DNA from: Photobacterium sanguinicancri
GTDB taxonomy: Bacteria; Pseudomonadota; Gammaproteobacteria; Enterobacterales; Vibrionaceae
Assembly: GCF_024346675.1 (NCBI RefSeq)
Contig: NZ_AP024850.1
Span: forward strand, 868,001-932,000
Direction of reading: 5' to 3'
Length of the DNA: 64,000 nt
Part shown: piece after piece, positions 53,123-63,464 of the stretch
Position numbering within the stretch: position 1 is the stretch's first letter
How the letters are laid out: each line of letters opens with the position of its first letter
Made by a program: the position numbers and the translations under genes
Notes under the pieces: generated by a model
Seen by the model: only the letters and a program-made list of their open reading frames with translations
Databases searched by the model: none
What the model was told of the DNA's origin: nothing

Positions 53123-53240
53123 ATGTGATTTTTAGAATAAATCACGTTTCATATCTATTATGCCACCTGTCTTATATTAGCATATTTCAAATGGTGTATT
53201 TTTGATGCAATAAAGGTGATGCGAGTCAATTATTGGCAAT

Positions 53241-53259
53241 AAAAATTATTATCATTACT
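53241..53259. promoter_or_regulatory. Fur box upstream of the FTR1/cytochrome block
   Basis: Read on the minus strand, AGTAATGATAATAATTTTT matches the Fur consensus GATAATGATAATCATTATC at 14 of 19 positions. A -10-like TATAGT at 53282-53287 places the box over the -35 region, the classical position for repression by Fe-Fur. The 313-bp gap 53059-53372 contains only the terminator at its start and this promoter region. Confidence 0.72.
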
Positions 53260-53372
53260 GTTATTTACATTTTGAAACATATATAGTGCGAACAATTCTC
53301 GTTTAGCATCTGTTCGGTGACACTCATTTGTTGTGCAAATAACCGTGATGGAATAATAAAAAAGGAAAAACC

Positions 53373-55394
53373 GTGAAGAAGTCAACGTTAACGCTTGCCA
53401 TTGCCGCAGCCGTTTTTGCATCGACTGCGAGTGCTGCAGCTCAAGTTAAAGTGCTTGATAAGACTCATCAGCCAGCAGGTAACTTTCTAGCATATACCGA
53501 ATTTGAATTATCAGGAGAGCCTTTAGCAGAATCGCTAGGCCTAGATCTTGATGTGTTAGACCCGAATATTGCAGATGATCCAACACCATTTGATTTTGCT
53601 GCAGGTATTGAAAGTTACGAGTACTCAGAAGAAGCGATGTACGCGTTGAACTACCAATCGCAAATGGGTCCACACCTTGTTAACGGTCCTGTTAACCAAG
53701 CGCGTGGCGGTAAACTTGCTGATTTAGGTAAACGTGTTATCGAAATGGCGGGTGCGGTGGGTTTCCCAGCGAGCGAAATTCCGCAAAACATGTACCCAAT
53801 TTCGATTCCATATGTTTCGGGTAACCCTGAGTTTGCACAAAAGCCTGACACCACCACAGTTAACGGCGATGAAGTCGAGATTACGACGGCGAAAGGTAAT
53901 AGCAAAACAGTTCAAACGGTTGTTCCCGCTTATTTCCGTGACTACAAAACATTGGCTTGGGATGAAGCGAGCTTTGATAAAGCATTCAACCCTGCTGCAA
54001 CTGGCGGTATTTTGCTGAAAGAAGTGATGTGGTCACAAGATTTCTTAGGTGGCATGCACGTCACTGCGACAGATGAAGAAGTAGAAGCTGAATCTGCTGT
54101 TATGGATCAAGACGGCAAGCACAGCCTGGGTGTTTCTGCCGCTGATGGCTTTAACGGCATGATGCTGACTGAAATGTCGATTGATAAGATGCTTATCATG
54201 CAACAGCAATTAGGCTTTGATGGTAAGAAGCTGGGTGTGAAATTCGGCCCTGATTACGATCCAGCGAAAGGCCCAATTTGGTTCGCGCACAAAGTGGCCG
54301 TGACTGAAGGTGAACAAAACGGCGTTAAATCCATTGCGGGTCTAAAAGTAACTGATGGCACATCAACACTACGTGATACTTGGTCAACACTATGGCCTGT
54401 AGCGGAATTCTTTGCATTCAGTGATCAACGTGAAGCAAACAGCGCGCAAAATCCTGCTTTCTTAGCGGTATTTGATGGTGCTCCATTTGCGGCGGCACCT
54501 GCGGCTAACACTGATGCGAATGAAGGAAATGATGTCGTTGCTGACGATGCTTTCTCGTTAGCGAACAATATTTCAAACCTTTTATTTAAAAACATTGCAG
54601 CGCTGCACTACAACCAAGCGAAAGGTACGTTTGTTACCGAATTCAAAGATGGTAAGCAAGGCAACCAAGTTGATACTTACGATGCTGCGTACTCGATTGT
54701 TGCACTATCGATTTACCAACGTGCGAAAGATGCATTGCCTGTTGGTTATGCTTCTGCAGAGTCTGGTGATGTAGACCTGAAAACCGCAGCGGGTAAAGAC
54801 GCATTAGCGATGATCAAAGGTCAGGCTGACTTCATCATTGATCACCTTGTTAGCAGCAACGGCCTTGTGTTTGATGGCCTAACGTTAAATAAAGTGAATA
54901 CCCTCAACAAAGACAAATCACTGGATGCACAGTTTGCTGCTATTCGTGGTTTGGTCGCCGCTTACCTTGCAACGGATGATGTGAAGTACAAGCAAGCTGC
55001 CCGTTCTATTTACCTAGCGGTAGAGAAAAACATGTTTGATAAAAACATCAACACATGGGCAACCGTACCGGGTAAAGCAACTATCCACACTCCGTATACT
55101 GAAGCGGCAATTTCAGGTGGTCTGCGCGAAGCGATTCTCCACCTGAAAAACGAAGAAGGCGAGAACGAGCCAGCACTAGAATTAACTACCCTAACGGATC
55201 GTTATGTCAGCTGGTTCCGCACTGTGATTAATGGCGGTATGCAGTTAGCAGAGTGGATGGGTGATTCAGGTGAAAACCAAATTAAAGGTAGCAGCTCAAC
55301 GGATACAGATGAAGATGGTGTTCATCAAATCATCGCTGCTGGTGGCAAGTTTGGTACTGCAATGACAATGGCAAATAAGGCCAGTGTTAAATAA
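53373..55394 (+). CDS. Large secreted protein of unknown function, first gene of the iron block
   Basis: 673 residues. Clear signal peptide (MKKSTLTLAIAAAVFASTASA, cleavage near 21). The second half (about 410-640) is helical with the spacing of an alpha/alpha-toroid domain (YDAAYSIVALSIYQRAKDALP; QFAAIRGLVAAYLATDDVKYKQAARSIYLAVEKNMFD; YTEAAISGGLREAILHL). An Asp-rich DTDEDG loop near residue 648 could bind calcium. No Cys, no CXXCH and no recognised iron-binding motif. GTG start with AAGGA upstream. Behind a Fur box; an intrinsic terminator follows, so it is probably made in excess over the downstream genes. Confidence 0.7.
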   Translation: MKKSTLTLAIAAAVFASTASAAAQVKVLDKTHQPAGNFLAYTEFELSGEPLAESLGLDLDVLDPNIADDPTPFDFAAGIESYEYSEEAMYALNYQSQMGPHLVNGPVNQARGGKLADLGKRVIEMAGAVGFPASEIPQNMYPISIPYVSGNPEFAQKPDTTTVNGDEVEITTAKGNSKTVQTVVPAYFRDYKTLAWDEASFDKAFNPAATGGILLKEVMWSQDFLGGMHVTATDEEVEAESAVMDQDGKHSLGVSAADGFNGMMLTEMSIDKMLIMQQQLGFDGKKLGVKFGPDYDPAKGPIWFAHKVAVTEGEQNGVKSIAGLKVTDGTSTLRDTWSTLWPVAEFFAFSDQREANSAQNPAFLAVFDGAPFAAAPAANTDANEGNDVVADDAFSLANNISNLLFKNIAALHYNQAKGTFVTEFKDGKQGNQVDTYDAAYSIVALSIYQRAKDALPVGYASAESGDVDLKTAAGKDALAMIKGQADFIIDHLVSSNGLVFDGLTLNKVNTLNKDKSLDAQFAAIRGLVAAYLATDDVKYKQAARSIYLAVEKNMFDKNINTWATVPGKATIHTPYTEAAISGGLREAILHLKNEEGENEPALELTTLTDRYVSWFRTVINGGMQLAEWMGDSGENQIKGSSSTDTDEDGVHQIIAAGGKFGTAMTMANKASVK

Positions 55395-55420
55395 CCAGTC
55401 ACCATAATTTGTTACGGATT

Positions 55421-55456
55421 AGGCAGCGATTTTGTATCGCTGCCTTTGTCGTTTTT
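55421..55456 (+). terminator. Terminator/attenuator inside the iron block
   Basis: Perfect 10-bp stem AGGCAGCGAT / ATCGCTGCCT, loop TTTGT, followed by TTGTCGTTTTT. The interrupted T-run suggests partial termination between the first gene and the b-type cytochrome gene. No other clear promoter is seen in this 127-bp gap. Confidence 0.8.
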
Positions 55457-55521
55457 ATCATTTTGATTATTTATTGTGTTTTTTATCGGTAAGTAATGAC
55501 GGGTAGTGAGTAAGAATTGTT

Positions 55522-56004
55522 ATGGCTGCGCATAGTGTGTCGGAACAGCTTCCGAAGTCCGGGTGGTTTAACCAATGGTGGCTGAGTTTGGCTTATCACC
55601 ATAAATGGGCTGAATCTTTACTCTATATGATGTTTTTCAGCGGGATCTTGCTTTGGGATCGCGTTGGGGTGACGTGGCAGGTTGAGCGTTGGTTACTGTT
55701 GGCACACATGCTGGTAGGCGCAACCTTGTTCAGTCTTATTGTTGGCGCATTTTGGGGCGCTCACCGTCGTCTGATCGTTAAAAGTAATAAGCCATTTCTA
55801 CGCCAAACCGGCACTTTGATTGAGTGGCTCTTGATAGCGTGCAGCCTCAGCGGCTTCTATCTGATTTTTTACGGTAACACGGGCAACCCCCTTGGTGTCG
55901 TAATGCAAAATATTCACTTCTATTCATCTTGGTTACTGGCTCCATTGGTGTTTCGCCATGCAATGCGCTGGAGCGTGTTAAACCTATCGAAATTTTTTAA
56001 GTGA
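55522..56004 (+). CDS. Four-helix membrane protein, b-type cytochrome-like
   Basis: 160 residues with four hydrophobic helices (about 31-48, 60-80, 99-117, 134-148). His residues sit near helix ends: YHHKW (26-27), LAHM (about 62), GAHRR (about 76), NIHFYSSW (about 131) and FRHAMRW (about 145), the pattern of a diheme cytochrome b561-type electron carrier. Heme binding is not proven by the sequence. FTR1 follows after 38 bases. Possible role: passing electrons between the quinone pool and the periplasmic cytochrome at 60.4 kb. Confidence 0.68.
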   Translation: MAAHSVSEQLPKSGWFNQWWLSLAYHHKWAESLLYMMFFSGILLWDRVGVTWQVERWLLLAHMLVGATLFSLIVGAFWGAHRRLIVKSNKPFLRQTGTLIEWLLIACSLSGFYLIFYGNTGNPLGVVMQNIHFYSSWLLAPLVFRHAMRWSVLNLSKFFK

Positions 56005-56041
56005 TGAATAGCAAAAACAGTAAAAATTGTTTGGGGAAAAC

Positions 56042-56860
56042 ATGTTAGCCAGTTTTTTAATTACTCTACGAGAAGGGCTGGAAGCCTTCTTGCTTGTGGG
56101 CATCGCCTTATCCTATTTAGCTAAACTTAATGCCCGCCAATACAATAAATATATCTATTTAGGGGTGTTTGTCGGTTTGTTGCTTTCATTGGTTGTGGCT
56201 GTTGTGTTCCAAGTGGTCGTCGATCAGTTTAGCAACGAGCTATACCGTAACTATTTGATGGCAGGGATCCTCACTTTTGCGACTGTCGTGCTGACTTACA
56301 TGGCGATCTGGATGCAGAATCAGGCCAAAAACCAAGTCGCGCAGATGCAGCAAGATGTATCTGATATGGTCAGTTCGGGCAACTTATTTGGCTTGGTCTT
56401 TTTGTCTTTGTTGGCGGTATTGCGTGAAGGTTTTGAGACGATTTTATTTTTCTCTGCCTTGATGTATTCAAACTTTGGTGAATTCAGTACCCAAGATGCC
56501 TTAATTGGCGCTGTCGCTGGCCTGTTACTTTCACTGGCAATCGTGTGGTTGATGTTACGTACAACGCGTAATGTGCCGTTGCGATCTTTTTTCCGCTGGA
56601 CCAGCCTATTGATCATTGTGATTGCAGCAGGACTGTTATCGTCGGCAGTGAACATGTTGCAAGCGGCACACGTATTGCCTGTTCTTCATGCGCAGCTTTT
56701 TGATATTTCGCACATCCTCGATGATCGTGGAGTGTTTGGCACTTTCTTACGTGCTTTGTTTGGCTACAACTCTTCGCCGGGGTTATTACAACTCGCGGTT
56801 TGGGGCGGCTACATGGTGACATTTATCTTTTTCTGGAATCGAGGTTATAAGCAAGCATGA
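56042..56860 (+). CDS. FTR1-family iron permease
   Basis: 272 residues from the ATG at 56042 (GGGGA just upstream); a TTG at 56027 is less likely. Seven hydrophobic segments. Both Fe-binding REXXE motifs are present: REGLE at 10-14 and REGFE at 128-132. FTR1/EfeU proteins move Fe3+ across the inner membrane after oxidation of Fe2+ by a partner. The usual partners (EfeO, EfeB, P19, multicopper oxidase) are absent nearby. Overlaps the flavoprotein gene by ATGA. Confidence 0.93.
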   Translation: MLASFLITLREGLEAFLLVGIALSYLAKLNARQYNKYIYLGVFVGLLLSLVVAVVFQVVVDQFSNELYRNYLMAGILTFATVVLTYMAIWMQNQAKNQVAQMQQDVSDMVSSGNLFGLVFLSLLAVLREGFETILFFSALMYSNFGEFSTQDALIGAVAGLLLSLAIVWLMLRTTRNVPLRSFFRWTSLLIIVIAAGLLSSAVNMLQAAHVLPVLHAQLFDISHILDDRGVFGTFLRALFGYNSSPGLLQLAVWGGYMVTFIFFWNRGYKQA

Positions 56861-58281
56861 GTACGGCAGCTGAAAATAAACACATTGCGGTATTAGGTGC
56901 CGGTCCTGCGGGTTTGATGGCGGCGTGGGAGTTAATGGAAGCGGGTTACCAAGTGACCATTCTAGATCGTGATGATCATGTTGGTGGTATGTGTGCCACT
57001 CAGACTTTTACGGGGCAACATGGTGATTACCGATTTGATTTTGGTGGCCACCGTTTTATTACCAAGAACCCCAAACTGCTGGCTTTCGTGGATTCACTGA
57101 TGGGTGAAGAATTATTGTTCGCCCAACGTAAAAGTGTCATTCGCTACCGTGGCCGTATTTATCAGTATCCCTTGGCGCTGGTGGATTTGATCAAGAATGC
57201 ACCTTTACCGTTGTTGGTGGGGGGCGCAGTCGATTTAGCGAAGCAAATCTTTAAGCCAAAACCACAAGATCAATCTTCGGTGAGTTTTGCTGAGTGGATT
57301 GAAAGCCGCTTTGGTACCACCTTGTATAAGCACTTTTTTGAAGGTTATACCGGCAAATTATGGGGCATTGATCCTAAGTTTTTATCTGGTGACTGGGCGT
57401 CACAGCGTATTAGCCTGATGGATTTGAAAGACGTCGCACGTCGTTTATTACCTGGACGCCGCTCGTCGGTGCGTACTTATGCTCGCCAATACCGTTACCC
57501 TAAACTGGGCTTTGGTCAGCTGTATACTCGCCTTGCTGAAGAGCTTGAAAAGAAAGGTGTTACCATCGTTTTAAATAGCGATGTCTGCGGTTTGACGGTC
57601 AATGCTAACCAGCAGATTGAGCAAGTTGAGTACCGTCATCAGGGGGTAACGAAAACCCTTAGCTGCGATAATGTGATTTCGACCTTACCACTATCCTTGA
57701 TGTGTCAACTGACAGGATTCGACAGTGGATTAGAGTTTCGTTCATTGCGCTTTATGAATATGCCAATGGAAACTCAAGATATCTCTGACAACACTTGGCA
57801 ATACCTTTCGGATCCTGAATTGCTAGGCACGCGTCTGCAAGAGCCCAAACGCCGTTCTTCATTTATGGCACCTGAAGGGCGATCTTCTGTGATGATCGAA
57901 ATTCCATGTAACAAAAATGATGATGTGTGGAACATGGACGGTGATCGTCTGCAACAGCGCGTTCTTGCGGATCTGGCGTCATTAGGCGTTGATCCTCAGC
58001 TTGCGACGGGTGAGTACTTCACGTCTTACACCGAGCATGCTTATCCGTTGATGGACATGACCTATCAAGCGAAGCGCGAAAAAGCGATCACCCACCTTTC
58101 GCAATACAGCAATTTAATCATGACAGGACGTCAAGGTACATTCCGCTATATTTTCACCGATACCGCAATGGAAATGGGCATGATGGCTGCGCAATCTGTG
58201 ATTGATGGTAAAGATCGTCGTCGGGAGATTTTTGATTTTCGTAACGAAAAGACCGTGATTGAAGTCCAGAGTGTCGCATAG
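56857..58281 (+). CDS. FAD-dependent oxidoreductase, protoporphyrinogen oxidase/UDP-galactopyranose mutase-like
   Basis: 474 residues, no signal peptide, cytoplasmic. Dinucleotide motif VLGAGPAG (12-19) followed by the acid LDRDDHVGGMCAT; conserved FDFGGHRFITKNPKLL; YTGKLWGIDPKFLSGDWASQRI; C-terminal GRQGTFRYIFTDTAMEMG FAD-binding end. Relatives are often found in polysaccharide clusters, and here a GT-C glycosyltransferase gene is two genes downstream. Alternatively it could supply reducing power in the iron pathway. Substrate unknown. Translationally coupled to FTR1. Confidence 0.78.
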   Translation: MSTAAENKHIAVLGAGPAGLMAAWELMEAGYQVTILDRDDHVGGMCATQTFTGQHGDYRFDFGGHRFITKNPKLLAFVDSLMGEELLFAQRKSVIRYRGRIYQYPLALVDLIKNAPLPLLVGGAVDLAKQIFKPKPQDQSSVSFAEWIESRFGTTLYKHFFEGYTGKLWGIDPKFLSGDWASQRISLMDLKDVARRLLPGRRSSVRTYARQYRYPKLGFGQLYTRLAEELEKKGVTIVLNSDVCGLTVNANQQIEQVEYRHQGVTKTLSCDNVISTLPLSLMCQLTGFDSGLEFRSLRFMNMPMETQDISDNTWQYLSDPELLGTRLQEPKRRSSFMAPEGRSSVMIEIPCNKNDDVWNMDGDRLQQRVLADLASLGVDPQLATGEYFTSYTEHAYPLMDMTYQAKREKAITHLSQYSNLIMTGRQGTFRYIFTDTAMEMGMMAAQSVIDGKDRRREIFDFRNEKTVIEVQSVA

Positions 58282-58301
58282 CTAGCCAAGAGGAATAACA
58301 G

Positions 58302-58892
58302 ATGAAACGACAAGGTTATGTTCAATTATTCGCACGGCTGTTAGTGCTTGGTTTAGCTTTATTCGCGAGCACATCAAGCTATGCCTACTCCTATGCAGCG
58401 GCAGGTAAAGAACCTGTTATTGATGGTCGTGAAGCTATTTTGACTGCTTTGAACCAGCAAGACTTTGTGGCAGTACAACGTGCCGTAGATGGGTTGACGG
58501 ATGAGTTTACCTATCTACAAAAAGAGCATCAGGTTGATCTGTTTACGCCCATGCAAGCGGCAGTGGCAGCCAAGGATGCAGCAAAAGTTGAAGCGGTGAT
58601 GGATCGCGCTGTGGTTGAAGAAATCATTCGTCGCTTAGACGGTGCAGGTAAAAACTTGGCCGATTATCAAGTCGCAAAAGTCTTAGTTGTAAAAAGTAAG
58701 CTGTTTCTGGATTTGATCACGCCTAAGTTGGATGACGTCCACCGCCAACAAGCAGATCTGGCTATCCAAGGCACACTAGAGTCCATTGGTAACCCTGGGG
58801 TATTTGGTGTGGGACAAGCGCCAGCGGATCCTCAAGCATTTAAGCAGCAAAGCCAATTGTTGATTGATGTGATCAGCACTTTGCACCAGTAG
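58302..58892 (+). CDS. Small secreted helical protein of unknown function
   Basis: 196 residues. Signal peptide ending SSYA (about residue 28). The mature part is almost wholly helical and rich in Asp, Glu and Lys, with segments such as DGREAILTALNQQDF and KVLVVKSKLFLDLI. Size and helicity recall the periplasmic domains that accompany or are fused to some FTR1 permeases, but no EXXE or HXXE iron motif is obvious. Located 20 bases after the flavoprotein and 18 before the glycosyltransferase gene. Confidence 0.6.
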   Translation: MKRQGYVQLFARLLVLGLALFASTSSYAYSYAAAGKEPVIDGREAILTALNQQDFVAVQRAVDGLTDEFTYLQKEHQVDLFTPMQAAVAAKDAAKVEAVMDRAVVEEIIRRLDGAGKNLADYQVAKVLVVKSKLFLDLITPKLDDVHRQQADLAIQGTLESIGNPGVFGVGQAPADPQAFKQQSQLLIDVISTLHQ

Positions 58893-58910
58893 TAAGGCGG
58901 TGAATTAAAC

Positions 58911-60398
58911 GTGGGCCAGCTAAAGCTTGATGCTGTAGCAAGACAGGGTAAACAAACGAGTCTTTGCCTGCTTGCTATGCCCTATAAAGTAGTTTGGCCT
59001 GGGTGCGCCCTGTTTACCCTGCTGGCTTACCTGCTTTGGTGGCATTGGATTGGGCAATTTCCACTGCAACTCACCAGTGATGATGCGCTGAATTTTGCTC
59101 GCGGTGTTGAGCGCTTTTCGGTGCTGGAGTTTCGACCTCACTTTCCGGGGTATCCTGCATTCATTGGTTTTGCGCGATTAGCTGCGCTATGGGTTGCGCC
59201 TAATACTGCTGCGATCTGGGTGTCATTAATGAGCGCCATGCTGATCCCTTTGGCTGTCGCTCGCTTGATTTATTTGTGTTCGCTTTCATTGGTTGCTGCA
59301 ACGTTCGGCGGTGTCTTGGCTTTAACGCAACCTTTGCTGGCTTCAATGGCCTTAAGTGGCTTATCCGATGCACCCGCAATTTTGTTGTTGCTGGTGGCTT
59401 TGGTCGCTGCGGTGCAAAAACAGTACTGGCAGGTGGGCTTGTGGCTGGGGTTGATGCTTGCTACTCGTCCATCCTATGTCGTACTTGCTTTGGGTGTGGC
59501 AGCGGTACCATGGTGGCAAGGTCTGCATCGCCAACAGGGCTTCGTCGGGCAAACAAAGGCCTTTTTGAAAGCCAGCTGTTCATTGGCTTTGGTCGGGAGT
59601 GTGAGCCTAATTTTTATTTGGGCGCATGATGGTGCAGCTTATATCACCGAAGGGATCCGTTTTACTCAAGGACACTTTGCCATTTGGGGCAATACCGTTG
59701 AGGGGAATGATGCAACCTTGTGGCAATGGGTTAGCGCATTGCGTGAGGGCTTTGGTGGATTATTGCTATGGGCAAGTTTGCTGTCACTCAGTGCTGCTAT
59801 AGCGATGGGCCACATTAAGTCGACCTGTCTAATGGGCTTATCGCGTGCGGTTGCTTCACCAGCGTTGGCAGCTTTAGCCACGGTCGCAGCTTTGTACTGG
59901 GTATGGATCAGTGTTGGGCAAAACCCTGACAATTTACGCCATTGGGCACCGGTATTGTTTTTAGCGCTAGTGGTGATGTCAGCACAAATGGCCCGTTTGG
60001 TACAAGGTCGCCCAGTGCTGATTGTGGTGGTGGTTGGTCTTATTAGTTATCACGGTGGACGCAACATCGACACCATGATGCCATCGCTTGAGCTGGAGCA
60101 AACTCAGCTTCAAGCGCCGATACAGCAGGCGATCCAATGGATCCGTACCCAACCACAAATCAAGGTGGTTGGTACAAATTACAGCGTGAATTTATTACGT
60201 GCCCAGCTTCAAGATCGCGCGGTATATGACATGTTTTACCCCAGTAGCGAGCGAGCGCTACGAGAGCAAGCGCACCAAGTTCCAAATAGTGCGTGGCGTA
60301 TTTCTGGTACTCAGCTATCAGGATTGAAACTTGAAGCACAGTTTGCACCAAGGTTTATTGGTGAACGGCGCCTCTTTTTATATCAGATAAGTCAGTAA
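58911..60398 (+). CDS. Multi-pass membrane glycosyltransferase, GT-C fold
   Basis: 495 residues with about 11 hydrophobic segments and a C-terminal soluble part (about 395-495). The GT-C acidic motif follows the first helix (LTSDDALNFARG, D57-D58), and HFPGYPAFIG matches the ArnT/PMT-type loop. Such enzymes use lipid-phosphate sugars to modify lipids or proteins on the periplasmic side. GTG start. Its place in a Fur-associated block with an FTR1 permease is unexpected; the acceptor could be one of the secreted neighbours, which is inference. Confidence 0.75.
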   Translation: MGQLKLDAVARQGKQTSLCLLAMPYKVVWPGCALFTLLAYLLWWHWIGQFPLQLTSDDALNFARGVERFSVLEFRPHFPGYPAFIGFARLAALWVAPNTAAIWVSLMSAMLIPLAVARLIYLCSLSLVAATFGGVLALTQPLLASMALSGLSDAPAILLLLVALVAAVQKQYWQVGLWLGLMLATRPSYVVLALGVAAVPWWQGLHRQQGFVGQTKAFLKASCSLALVGSVSLIFIWAHDGAAYITEGIRFTQGHFAIWGNTVEGNDATLWQWVSALREGFGGLLLWASLLSLSAAIAMGHIKSTCLMGLSRAVASPALAALATVAALYWVWISVGQNPDNLRHWAPVLFLALVVMSAQMARLVQGRPVLIVVVVGLISYHGGRNIDTMMPSLELEQTQLQAPIQQAIQWIRTQPQIKVVGTNYSVNLLRAQLQDRAVYDMFYPSSERALREQAHQVPNSAWRISGTQLSGLKLEAQFAPRFIGERRLFLYQISQ

Positions 60399-60438
60399 TG
60401 AGACTGGCTGATTGGAAGTTATGTGAGTGTAAAGGCAA

Positions 60439-63366
60439 ATGAATTTAAATAGTAAATATAAGCCTATTAAGCAGTTGTTTTTATTGATTGTTGTGCTGAT
60501 GAGTCAATCAGTCTTCGCGATCGAAAAAAGCAGCTCGATGCTTTTTAATAGCGATAAAACACAGATCATCAGTGCGAATTTTGATGCCGGCAGTGTCAGT
60601 CTGCTCAATCGAGAAAATGGTGACATTGAAAAAGAGGTCACCATAGGTCGTGATATCCGCCGTATTGCGCTTACCCAAGATGAGACACTATTACTGGCAA
60701 CGGATTACTTAAGTGATCAGGTTGTACTCTTAGATGCCAAAACACTCGCGACCAAGCAAGTGACGCAAGTGCCATCGCGTCCATTTGGTGTGGTGTTTGA
60801 TGCCAATAATCAGCAATTTTATGTCACCAGCTTTGAACGGGATAAGTTATTGGTGATTGATCGCAAAGGGGAGGTTACTCAAACCTTAGCAACGGCTTCC
60901 ACGCCACGTGGCTTGGCTCTGACCGATGATGGTCGTTTGTTGATTACCCATGCGTTATCGGGCGAAGTTTCAATTTATAACGTGACAACCCCAACGCCGC
61001 AGCTTATCAAAGTGGTGCAACTTGCAGAGACCCCCGCCCATCAAGAGAAAACCACGCCACAAGGTAAGCCACGTTTATTAGATAACATTGTGATTTCGCC
61101 TGATGGTCAGCAGGCATGGTTACCCCATGTATTGTGGTCGTTTGGCCATGATTTCCACTTTCAGTCGACTGTCTTCCCTACGGTGTCGATTTTGGATTTG
61201 GAGCAGGGCAATGAACATGAAATTATTGATGAACGTAAGCAGCTATTTAAACAAATCAACATAATTGAAAGTGGTAACCGTATCCGCATCGTTTCAAATC
61301 CCCATGATGGTGTGTTTACCGCAGATGGAAAGAAAGTCATTTTCACCTTAGCGGGTTCTGAAGATTTGATGGTGTTTGATTTATCTCGCCAAGGTAAGAA
61401 AAACAAAAAACGTCACCGCCGTAAGAAGTTTCAAGGCGGGGTTAAAGCTACCCAGATTTTCCGTAATGTGCCGGGTGATAATCCGCGCGGCATTTTGGTG
61501 GCTGGGCGAGAGTTGTATGTACAAAATGCGATGTCATTGGATATTGCTAAATTTGATACTGGTGCTGTAGGGCCATTTGCCAAAGTTAAGCTGACGAAAG
61601 CAAACTTTGCCAACCTGGTGAGTGCCGATCCACTACCGACACAATTGCGCCGAGGCAAAACCTTATTTAACCGTGCCAACATGGCCGATAATCCTAAATT
61701 CCCTATGGCGGGGGATTTCTGGATGAGCTGTAATTCTTGTCACCTTGATGGCTTTAACTTTACTAACCGTCAACTGATGGAAGACGGCAAGAAGGACCGC
61801 TTTGAAAATGCAACTACTGGTCATGTTGATGTACGTAAGATGATCGCTGGCGACCCGATTGGCGCTTATATCGATATTATTCAAAAGACGCAAGGTGGTA
61901 TGGGCGGCGATCCGCGTGAAGACGATATGCCACCAGTGAATGTCGAGCAACCGCCATTGGAAGCGGCAAAAATGATGATGGCTTTGAATGAATATGTTCG
62001 TTCACCAGAAAATTTGCCGTATCTCTCAACTTGGCTGCGTCTTGATGACAATAAGCGTTACACCCATCCCGATGAGTGGGTCAATTCCGCAGAGTGTTCA
62101 GATTGCCACACCACGATTTACGACCAATGGGCGGATTCTAACCATGGTATGAATATGGATCACCCTTATTACCGTTTTCAAGAAGATGTCGCGGCACAAA
62201 GCGAAGGGGAAGAGTTCCGTGTGCTCTGCCGTGGCTGCCATGCGCCTCAAATGGTGATCAATGGTGAGAATAAGCCATTTTCCGACTTTGGTGATATGCG
62301 AGAAAAAGGTGGCAAGTCACTCAAACTGGCATTGGCTCATGGTCAGTCAGTGAATGAACGAGGTACTGGGTGTGTGTTCTGTCACCGTGTGACCAAAGCG
62401 GAAAATGCAGGTGGTAACACCGACATGACGGTTAACCTTAAAGATCGCGACAGCTATGTGTTTGAAGATGCGAAAAACAGCATGCTGAAATGGCTATCAG
62501 AAAAACAAATTAATGCGATGCCAGAACCACATAAAGCCTCTTATTCTAACCCTGAGCTTTATCAGAGTTCATTGTATTGTGCGACATGCCACAATGAATT
62601 TACTACGGGGCAAGGGGCGAATGTGAATGACAACTTCGGTGAGTGGTTAGCATCCCCATTTAATGCACCTGGAAATCCAGCCCAGAATAAGACGTGTATT
62701 GATTGTCATATGACGCAAGATGTCACTAATTTTGATAATAAAGTCGGTGGTCAATCAACCAATGACGGCCCTATGAAGTCGAACTTACGTTCGCACCACT
62801 TGGTGGGCGGAAACTACTTCTTTACTGGGATGCGTAATCCTGAGCATAAGAAGATGAGTATCGACATTCTAAAGACGGCACTGAGCTTAGACGTTGAAAA
62901 ACAAGGTAACCAACTTACGGCTAAAGTGACCAATGTGAACTCAGGCCATGATATGCCTGGTGGTGCTCGCCGCCAGGTGTGGTTGGAAGTGATTGCCACT
63001 GATGCCAACGGTAAGCAGGTGTTTACCAGTGGTGTGATGCAAAATGGCGTGATCCCGAAAGATGCCCATAAATTTATTAAAGTGGGGGTTGATAAAGACG
63101 GCAAGCCTGTCGGATTGCGTTTCTGGCGCTATGTCAAAATTGGCAAAGACACCCGCATTAAATCTGGTGAAACCCGCAATGAGGTGTTTGAATTACCTGC
63201 TGGTGTGCAATATCCGTTAACGGTTTCAACTCGAGTGCTATATCAAGTGTTTGCCAAAGGCTTAACGGATAAAGTACGCGCCGCATACCCTGATGAGCAT
63301 ATCCCTGATCCTGACGTGATTGAATTGCAGGCTGTGACGAAGACGTATGCTACTAACAATGGGTGA
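60439..63366 (+). CDS. Secreted beta-propeller/hexaheme c-type cytochrome
   Basis: 975 residues, signal peptide ending SVFA (about 28). The N-terminal half (about 30-385) has repeating YVTN/lactonase-like blades (LLNRENGDIEKEVTIGRDIRRIALTQDE; RPFGVVFDANNQQFYVTSF). Six CXXCH heme motifs begin at Cys431, 553, 597, 645, 714 and 753. The first lies in a cytochrome-c-peroxidase-like segment (RRGKTLFNRANM...CNSCH); the last five lie in a region like cytochrome c554 multiheme domains. The C-terminal part (about 800-965) is beta-rich. Needs the Ccm system encoded at 27-34 kb. Likely a periplasmic electron carrier or oxidase. Confidence 0.88.
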   Translation: MNLNSKYKPIKQLFLLIVVLMSQSVFAIEKSSSMLFNSDKTQIISANFDAGSVSLLNRENGDIEKEVTIGRDIRRIALTQDETLLLATDYLSDQVVLLDAKTLATKQVTQVPSRPFGVVFDANNQQFYVTSFERDKLLVIDRKGEVTQTLATASTPRGLALTDDGRLLITHALSGEVSIYNVTTPTPQLIKVVQLAETPAHQEKTTPQGKPRLLDNIVISPDGQQAWLPHVLWSFGHDFHFQSTVFPTVSILDLEQGNEHEIIDERKQLFKQINIIESGNRIRIVSNPHDGVFTADGKKVIFTLAGSEDLMVFDLSRQGKKNKKRHRRKKFQGGVKATQIFRNVPGDNPRGILVAGRELYVQNAMSLDIAKFDTGAVGPFAKVKLTKANFANLVSADPLPTQLRRGKTLFNRANMADNPKFPMAGDFWMSCNSCHLDGFNFTNRQLMEDGKKDRFENATTGHVDVRKMIAGDPIGAYIDIIQKTQGGMGGDPREDDMPPVNVEQPPLEAAKMMMALNEYVRSPENLPYLSTWLRLDDNKRYTHPDEWVNSAECSDCHTTIYDQWADSNHGMNMDHPYYRFQEDVAAQSEGEEFRVLCRGCHAPQMVINGENKPFSDFGDMREKGGKSLKLALAHGQSVNERGTGCVFCHRVTKAENAGGNTDMTVNLKDRDSYVFEDAKNSMLKWLSEKQINAMPEPHKASYSNPELYQSSLYCATCHNEFTTGQGANVNDNFGEWLASPFNAPGNPAQNKTCIDCHMTQDVTNFDNKVGGQSTNDGPMKSNLRSHHLVGGNYFFTGMRNPEHKKMSIDILKTALSLDVEKQGNQLTAKVTNVNSGHDMPGGARRQVWLEVIATDANGKQVFTSGVMQNGVIPKDAHKFIKVGVDKDGKPVGLRFWRYVKIGKDTRIKSGETRNEVFELPAGVQYPLTVSTRVLYQVFAKGLTDKVRAAYPDEHIPDPDVIELQAVTKTYATNNG

Positions 63367-63430
63367 CTCAGAGCGTCAATAGCAAAGTATTAAGCTTGCA
63401 GTAATCGACTAAAATACCGCAACAAACTGA

Positions 63431-63464
63431 AAGAGGCTTATCCAGAATAAGCCTCTTTTTTTTT
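63431..63464 (+). terminator. Terminator after the multiheme cytochrome gene
   Basis: 11-bp stem AAGAGGCTTAT / ATAAGCCTCTT, loop CCAGA, followed by seven T. Ends the iron block. Confidence 0.94.

Follow-up and report, generated by a model that had tools for sequence, protein, structure and literature searches.

A conserved, modular, Fur-linked gene block of Photobacterium that joins an FTR1 iron permease to probable b- and c-type cytochromes

What part does an FTR1 iron permease play when its gene is set among genes for b- and c-type cytochromes, a flavoprotein, and a glycosyltransferase? The question is raised by a block of seven genes in Photobacterium sanguinicancri, within a window of 64,000 nucleotides (contig NZ_AP024850.1, positions 868,001 to 932,000) to which the coordinates below refer unless a locus is named. 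In descriptions of bacterial FTR1 systems, the permease is accompanied by copper proteins, peroxidases, or P19 proteins. An earlier sequence-only reading of the window had centered the block on FTR1, with oxidation of Fe2+ as the purpose of the cytochromes. Open reading frame checks and profile searches with Pfam and NCBIfam confirmed the seven plus-strand genes (g1 to g7) where that reading had placed them, and found REGxE motifs in FTR1 and the six CXXCH motifs of the c-type cytochrome. The comparisons reported here showed that the block is conserved, modular, linked to Fur-like boxes, and inherited together, with g1, g2, and g7 as its core and FTR1 as its outermost layer.

Conservation was assessed in 99 related genomes, the genome of the window included. 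The genes g1 (53373 to 55394) and near-full-length g7 (60439 to 63366) occurred in the same 16 genomes, and neither was found in the other 83; in one genome (G037) the g1 match reaches the end of its contig. Fifteen further genomes had only partial, distant matches to g7. FTR1 was present at the block in all 16 genomes; FTR1 matches also occurred in 13 others of the 99, none of which has g1 or a full-length g7. All seven genes were present, in unchanged order, in 14 of the 14 nonwindow block loci examined. Matches to g7, FTR1, and g1 in G037 share one 8.9-kb contig, and this 15th nonwindow ortholog lies outside the 14-locus order count. The window's g1 is 100% identical to its counterpart in P. 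sanguinicancri CAIM 1827 (L112). In G028, a Photobacterium relative, g7 is split across two frames (L041), and the remaining six genes match in full or nearly so; a similar split occurs in a Kangiellaceae assembly (L061). Four loci with distant relatives of g7 (L046 to L049) contained none of the other six genes.

Beyond these genomes, 69 g1 loci were collected from named species genomes with two short g1 peptide patterns, a procedure that misses relatives lacking both patterns, and gene content was determined by tblastn with the window proteins; the conclusions on nesting apply to these 69 loci. All seven genes were present in 23 loci, all but FTR1 in 4, g1-g2-g7 only in 12, and g1 alone in 28 (27 Aeromonas loci and L072). 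Photobacterium profundum (L054) is among the species with the block. Of the two remaining loci, L070 is cut by its contig and L074 holds g1, g4, g5, and g6, with no g2 or g7 at the locus. The full set occurs in two arrangements: FTR1-g4-g5-g6 separates g2 from g7 in 20 loci and follows g7 in three (L097, L100, and L103). Three of the core-only loci are irregular: L102 meets a contig end, L061 has its g7 divided in two, and g2-g7 of L094 lies 8.4 kb away from g1. The intervening ∼8.4 kb of L094 (9983 to 21975) consists of opposite-strand genes, which we take to include predicted exported binding-protein-like and OmpA-like proteins. The lone g1 of L072 (9992 to 11995) is a second copy, and the same genome holds a complete block at L060.

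Away from g1, Aeromonas keeps the remaining six genes clustered in the order g2-g7-g3-g4-g5-g6, as seen at 5 of 5 loci examined; in a sixth Aeromonas genome, g7 lies near g5. g7 was found in all 16 g1-bearing genomes searched, including six Aeromonas genomes with g1 elsewhere; g5 was found in 10 of these 16 and was absent genome-wide from all 6 core-only genomes. FTR1 never occurred without g4-g5-g6 among the 69 loci, and g4, g5, and g6 stay together, also at the four loci that have the core without FTR1. These loci thus show a nested order of dependence: the core g1-g2-g7, then g4-g5-g6, then FTR1. The sequence-only reading had named separate occurrence of the genes in relatives as evidence against a functional block; the modules do separate, but in the nested order. 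The flavin adenine dinucleotide (FAD)-dependent enzyme (g4) and the glycosyltransferase (g6), for which it had seen no place in known FTR1 systems, are not stray neighbors, given their association with g5.

The genomes with FTR1-less g1 loci bear directly on the place of the permease. FTR1 (PF03239) was absent genome-wide from 15 of the 16 such genomes, and 14 of these 15 carry g1-g2-g7, the exception being the genome of L074. With the core present in 14 FTR1-free genomes and FTR1 outermost in the nesting, FTR1 as the center of the system was rejected, and the scheme in which the cytochromes exist to oxidize Fe2+ for the permease was not supported. In the 16th genome, that of Motiliproteus coralliicola, FTR1 belongs to another gene cluster (G114 contig 9; L179, 6746 to 12715). 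This FTR1 has a periplasmic-looking N-terminal domain, and its neighbors are a 188-residue membrane protein, a 510-residue protein with two CXXCH motifs, a 194-residue four-helix-like (b-type-like) membrane protein, and a 545-residue pentaheme cytochrome. Pairing of FTR1 with cytochromes of the b and c types may have evolved on more than one occasion.

Within the core, g2 (55522 to 56004) encodes a 160-residue membrane protein. Averaging the hydropathy of 22 relatives brings out four hydrophobic segments, of which only two are strong in the window sequence alone. His62, His81, His132, and His146 are invariant in the 22 sequences and map to two of the four segments, within them or at their ends. 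Seven of the 22 members gave a weak DUF4405 match (best E value, 0.003). On these features g2 is a probable di-heme b-type cytochrome. The 975-residue g7 product has a signal-peptide-like start, an N-terminal beta-propeller, and a C-terminal multiheme c-type domain, as indicated by beta-propeller and multiheme matches in Pfam, and its six CXXCH motifs are conserved without exception in an alignment of 20 sequences. The C-terminal domain weakly matches several multiheme proteins (cytochrome c552 5ze8, ExtKL, and a DmsE-like decaheme protein). In Saccharospirillum salsuginis (L107, 12034 to 15000), a single frame joins the g2 and g7 orthologs in a fusion. Because of this fusion and the four invariant histidines of g2, the two proteins very probably form one electron-transfer unit, in agreement with the proposal of the sequence-only reading that they work together.

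Two further features of g7 and its relatives were recorded. A basic stretch, KKNKKRHRRKK (residues 320 to 330; window positions 61396 to 61428), is present in most aligned orthologs, including those of core-only loci, and is absent from g7 of L100 and L103; it is a possible docking surface. At L047 (8975 to 10957) and L048 (8839 to 10926), a four-helix part is fused to a multiheme domain 26 to 27% identical to g7, and these fusions adjoin a protein of ∼1,200 residues that is presumably FG-GAP-repeat-like.

Regulation by Fur was examined upstream of g1, where a score was assigned as the best match of 19 positions to the Escherichia coli Fur consensus. A first Fur-like box on the plus strand (53235 to 53253; GGCAATAAAAATTATTATC) matches at 14 of 19 positions. 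This match alone is not significant, since 6 of 60 mononucleotide shuffles of the sequence reached 14; the upstream stretch is AT-rich, and 14/19 is thus unremarkable there. The box that aligns with relatives is a second one (53282 to 53300, plus strand; TATAGTGCGAACAATTCTC), which matches at 12 of 19 positions and coincides with the best-box position in Photobacterium jeanii (L110) and an Aliivibrio assembly (L115). In a comparison across genera, 32 representative g1 upstream regions of 200 bases were set against 195 other upstream regions of the same loci. The best match averaged 13.3/19 upstream of g1, with 16 of 32 regions at 14 or above, versus 11.2/19 and 10 of 195 in the controls (Mann-Whitney P = 1.5e-10, for sequences that are related and hence not independent). 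Enrichment was seen both with FTR1 (at least 14 in 9 of 13 loci) and without it (at least 14 in 7 of 16, a set that excludes two Aeromonas loci and L072). Individual boxes are weak, and it is the comparative enrichment that makes the Fur link of the block credible at the sequence level; of the claim based on the window's own 14/19 box, the link stood and the box by itself did not. Upstream of the detached g2 cluster of Aeromonas, the best match was 13 to 14/19 in 5 of 5 loci, which were not set against controls; 34 of the 195 controls score at least 13/19, in a shorter stretch than was searched for that cluster.

The sequence-only reading had also described a single run from Fur box to terminator. 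An intrinsic terminator with a 13-pair stem does close the block (63429 to 63459, plus strand; simple scan), but an additional terminator-like hairpin (55421 to 55445, plus strand), conserved in Photobacterium, separates g1 from g2. Beyond Photobacterium, the stem recurs at loci of Aliivibrio, Vibrio, and Ferrimonas, and no such hairpin was found in 15 of the 38 g1-g2 intergenic gaps examined. The gene g1 is therefore probably in part its own transcription unit, and given the hairpin it may be expressed above the other genes.

The g1 product itself, of 673 residues with a signal-peptide-like start, is predicted by AlphaFold to form an (alpha/alpha)6-barrel. (The signal-peptide-like starts of g1, g5, and g7 were judged from sequence and hydropathy.) A Pfam scan of the seven window proteins gave matches in g3, g4, and g7 and none in g1, g2, g5, or g6. 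The profile searches recommended earlier for the 673- and 196-residue proteins (g1 and g5) yielded no family for either. Assignment of g1 to DUF4856 (source name P0212) was rejected, as no member of a 55-sequence alignment matches that family at an E value of 1. The gene is found in many marine bacteria in addition to the 27 Aeromonas loci, and protein searches gave relatives of which the best 120 of 459 (g1) and the best 120 of 413 (g5) were used. Both g1 and g5 are conserved families with no assigned function in the libraries searched. Together with g3, g1 is among the best-conserved proteins of the block.

The outer layers comprise the permease and the g4-g5-g6 unit. g3 (56027 to 56860) encodes an FTR1/EfeU-type iron permease that matches PF03239 with an E value of 6e-43 (147.5 bits against a cutoff of 25.3) but scores below the cutoff of the EfeU equivalog NF041756 (202.8 bits versus 255). 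Its motifs are REGLE and REGFE, and two REGxE motifs with the FTR1 domain are found in the window and in 23 of 23 relatives having g3. Judged by the start found in relatives, the ATG at 56042 is a likelier start codon than the TTG listed. g4 (56857 to 58281), which overlaps g3 by 4 bases, encodes a 474-residue FAD-dependent enzyme that matches NF005547 (PRK07208.1-3) in NCBIfam with 664 bits (cutoff, 380); flavin amine-oxidase and UDP-galactopyranose-mutase-like matches in Pfam indicate a distant likeness to UDP-galactopyranose mutase. g6 (58911 to 60398) encodes a 495-residue GT-C-like glycosyltransferase, multipass by hydropathy, which is the fastest evolving of the seven proteins and matches the surface-glycopolymer family NF046093 below its cutoff (E value, 4.5e-4). 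These matches suggest that g4 and g6 act in glycan or lipid-linked sugar chemistry.

The 196-residue g5 product (58302 to 58892) has a signal-peptide-like start followed by a conserved AYSYAAAGKEP and, at the C terminus, a conserved GNPGVFGVG. AlphaFold predicts an all-helical protein, for which the best Foldseek matches, EfeM and EfeO, are weak (E values of 0.16 and 0.37), and VIA-align placed generic four-helix bundles on top. The window's g5 has no HXXE motif, 4 of the 48 sequences in an alignment have one somewhere, and none of its His residues is invariant. The identification of g5 as an EfeO or EfeM in disguise was rejected and left as no more than a lead, as hhalign against six imelysin M75 proteins gave a probability of 0.3% and a PDB profile search gave no EfeO match. 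Weak Pfam matches seen here and there among the relatives of g5 were put down to chance (best E value, 4e-4 in 1 of 48; Psb31 in 5 of 48, best E value, 0.006).

How, then, does the block compare with known systems? As stated by the sequence-only reading, none of the seven proteins matched EfeO/M75, DyP (EfeB), P19, cupredoxin, or multicopper oxidase families (Pfam at an E value of 0.1 and NCBIfam). Genome-wide, 13 of 15 block genomes, that of the window among them, gave no match to P19 (PF10634); in the other two, P19 lies beside a second FTR1. EfeO (NF041757) was found in none of the 8 other block genomes searched, a set without the window's genome. The DyP N-terminal domain occurs outside the block in 11 of 15 genomes, in frames of ∼300 to 330 residues, and the one DyP match of the window's genome is a 313-residue frame ∼1.85 Mb away. 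That genome also has two imelysin-family (M75) genes, ∼1.8 kb apart and ∼430 kb from the block (G000 contig 1, 1360286 to 1364029). Among the genes listed as raised when fur is mutated in Aliivibrio salmonicida are one for a thiol oxidoreductase and one annotated "peptidase, putative iron-regulated" (PMC5511505), and the imelysin-family pair may be the counterpart of those two.

The block resembles EfeUOB/EfeUOM in its FTR1/EfeU-type permease, its Fur link, and the helical exported g5 with its weak EfeM/EfeO structural matches, but it lacks EfeO and EfeB, has multiheme and b-type cytochromes, and has a core that exists free of the permease. With the P19-FTR1 systems (FetMP and cFtr1) and FtrABCD it shares an FTR1 permease and extracytosolic redox parts, without P19, cupredoxin, or ferredoxin-like matches. 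Multiheme respiratory chains such as MtrCAB, ExtKL, and NrfA-type systems also have a multiheme c-type protein, which here is accompanied by a membrane cytochrome; g7 differs in its beta-propeller, its Fur link, and its partners g1 and FTR1, and no outer-membrane porin match was found in the block with Pfam. Flavinylation-based iron reductase clusters (PepSY- and MsrQ-like) likewise pass electrons across the membrane to an extracytosolic redox protein, are Fur repressed in two species, and adjoin iron transporters (PMC8238504). They use ApbE-attached flavin mononucleotide (FMN), whereas the block uses hemes, and no FMN-binding or ApbE match was found among the seven proteins. By the tests made, the block fits none of the EfeUOB, P19, FtrABCD, or flavinylated reductase families. 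No description of it was found in the literature searched, with subscription journals mostly outside that search.

The reading that we favor, with confidence a little short of even, is that the block is a layered, Fur-controlled envelope redox system for iron acquisition, in which ferric reduction is the most likely activity and FTR1 is an accessory importer. In this scheme g2 would draw electrons from the quinol pool and pass them to g7, which would most likely reduce ferric iron or one of its complexes within the envelope, while g1, probably abundant, would bind or present the substrate. A second layer, a helical periplasmic protein with membrane glycosylation (g4, g5, and g6), would tailor an envelope partner, and in a third layer FTR1 would bring iron in. 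Yeast reductive iron uptake is a b-type reductase feeding Ftr1; the scheme proposed here is similar in outline, with hemes replacing flavin. We infer the direction of electron flow, iron as the substrate, the role and abundance of g1, and the target of g4 and g6.

Several observations point this way. Since g1, g2, and g7 co-occur even when unlinked and g2 and g7 can be fused, the most economical interpretation is that electrons pass from quinol by way of the b hemes to the exported hexaheme protein. The Fur-like boxes and the association with FTR1 argue for iron as the substrate, and a heme-rich system under Fur-like control would be best explained by a gain of iron. Ferric reduction is favored because electron transfer from quinol to ferric iron is downhill, because Fur-repressed assimilatory reductases offer a precedent, and because the core is independent of FTR1. 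The precedent comes from Fur-repressed gene clusters that are interpreted as assimilatory iron reductases (PMC8238504). In A. salmonicida under iron limitation, most cytochromes c became less abundant and two (A0A6N4CR45 and A0A6N4CND1) were induced (PMC9503180); one of these two might be a g7 ortholog.

Other observations weigh against this iron-reducing scheme. The direction of electron flow could be the reverse. The best Fur match was below 14/19 in 9 of the 16 representative FTR1-less loci, an iron-binding site was identified in neither g1 nor g5, and the fused g2-g7 frame of L107 has an in-frame stop ahead of the last g7 part. Among the 16 genomes with an FTR1-less g1 locus, several of which are metagenome assemblies of unstated completeness, FeoB_C was present in 6 and not in the other 10. 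Nine had neither FeoB_C nor FTR1, and eight of these nine carry the core; with neither importer present, reduced iron would need another importer there. With FeoB_C in only 6 of the 16, a general rule by which the core is the ferric reductase for FeoB in FTR1-less genomes was rejected.

One competing reading reverses the current: the g7 hemes would oxidize periplasmic Fe2+, electrons would pass through g2 to quinone, and FTR1 would import the Fe3+ formed. Known FTR1 systems are described as relying on Fe2+ and its oxidation (PMC11966278). The g7 product is the only ferroxidase candidate found in the block with Pfam and NCBIfam, and FTR1 accompanies the block in every one of the 16 block genomes of the 99. 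We nonetheless consider this role unlikely, given a core found in 14 genomes with no FTR1 gene found and a reaction, free Fe2+ to quinone, that is uphill unless the Fe3+ is tightly bound.

Alternatively, g1-g2-g7 might be a respiratory or detoxifying oxidoreductase for a noniron substrate, under Fur control from its iron content alone and with FTR1 as a recent neighbor. The weak matches of the g7 C terminus to cytochrome c552 5ze8, ExtKL, and the DmsE-like decaheme protein would fit such a role, as would the weak Fur matches at the 9 FTR1-less loci and the two relatives whose four-helix part is fused to a multiheme domain, which adjoin other large proteins and not FTR1. Yet boxes resembling those of a Fur repressor would turn a heme-rich enzyme on under iron scarcity, and none of the 16 block genomes among the 99 lacks FTR1 beside the other genes; in our judgment this alternative has a small chance of being right. 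A surface-glycan system, in which a carbohydrate-active g1 enzyme works on a polymer produced or altered by g4 and g6 and the cytochromes drive sugar oxidation, draws on the barrel fold of g1 and is very unlikely, for likeness of fold proves no function, 12 of the 69 loci have g1-g2-g7 without g4 and g6, and g5 is missing from every core-only genome searched.

Returning to the favored iron-reducing scheme, its widest form would make g1-g2-g7 an undescribed heme-based assimilatory iron system with an (alpha/alpha)6-barrel iron carrier or presenter, FTR1-free in some lineages, to which the glycosylation pair, the helical protein, and finally FTR1 were recruited stepwise, as a bacterial counterpart of yeast reductive uptake. 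We regard this full account as possible but doubtful; that the core is a new system has a fair chance. Such a system would pose a paradox, since at least six hemes per g7, and probably two more in g2, would be spent while iron is scarce. The nested layering offers natural experiments on the contribution of each module, and a conserved set of FTR1 partners that relies on hemes of the b and c types would broaden the known chemistry of iron uptake.

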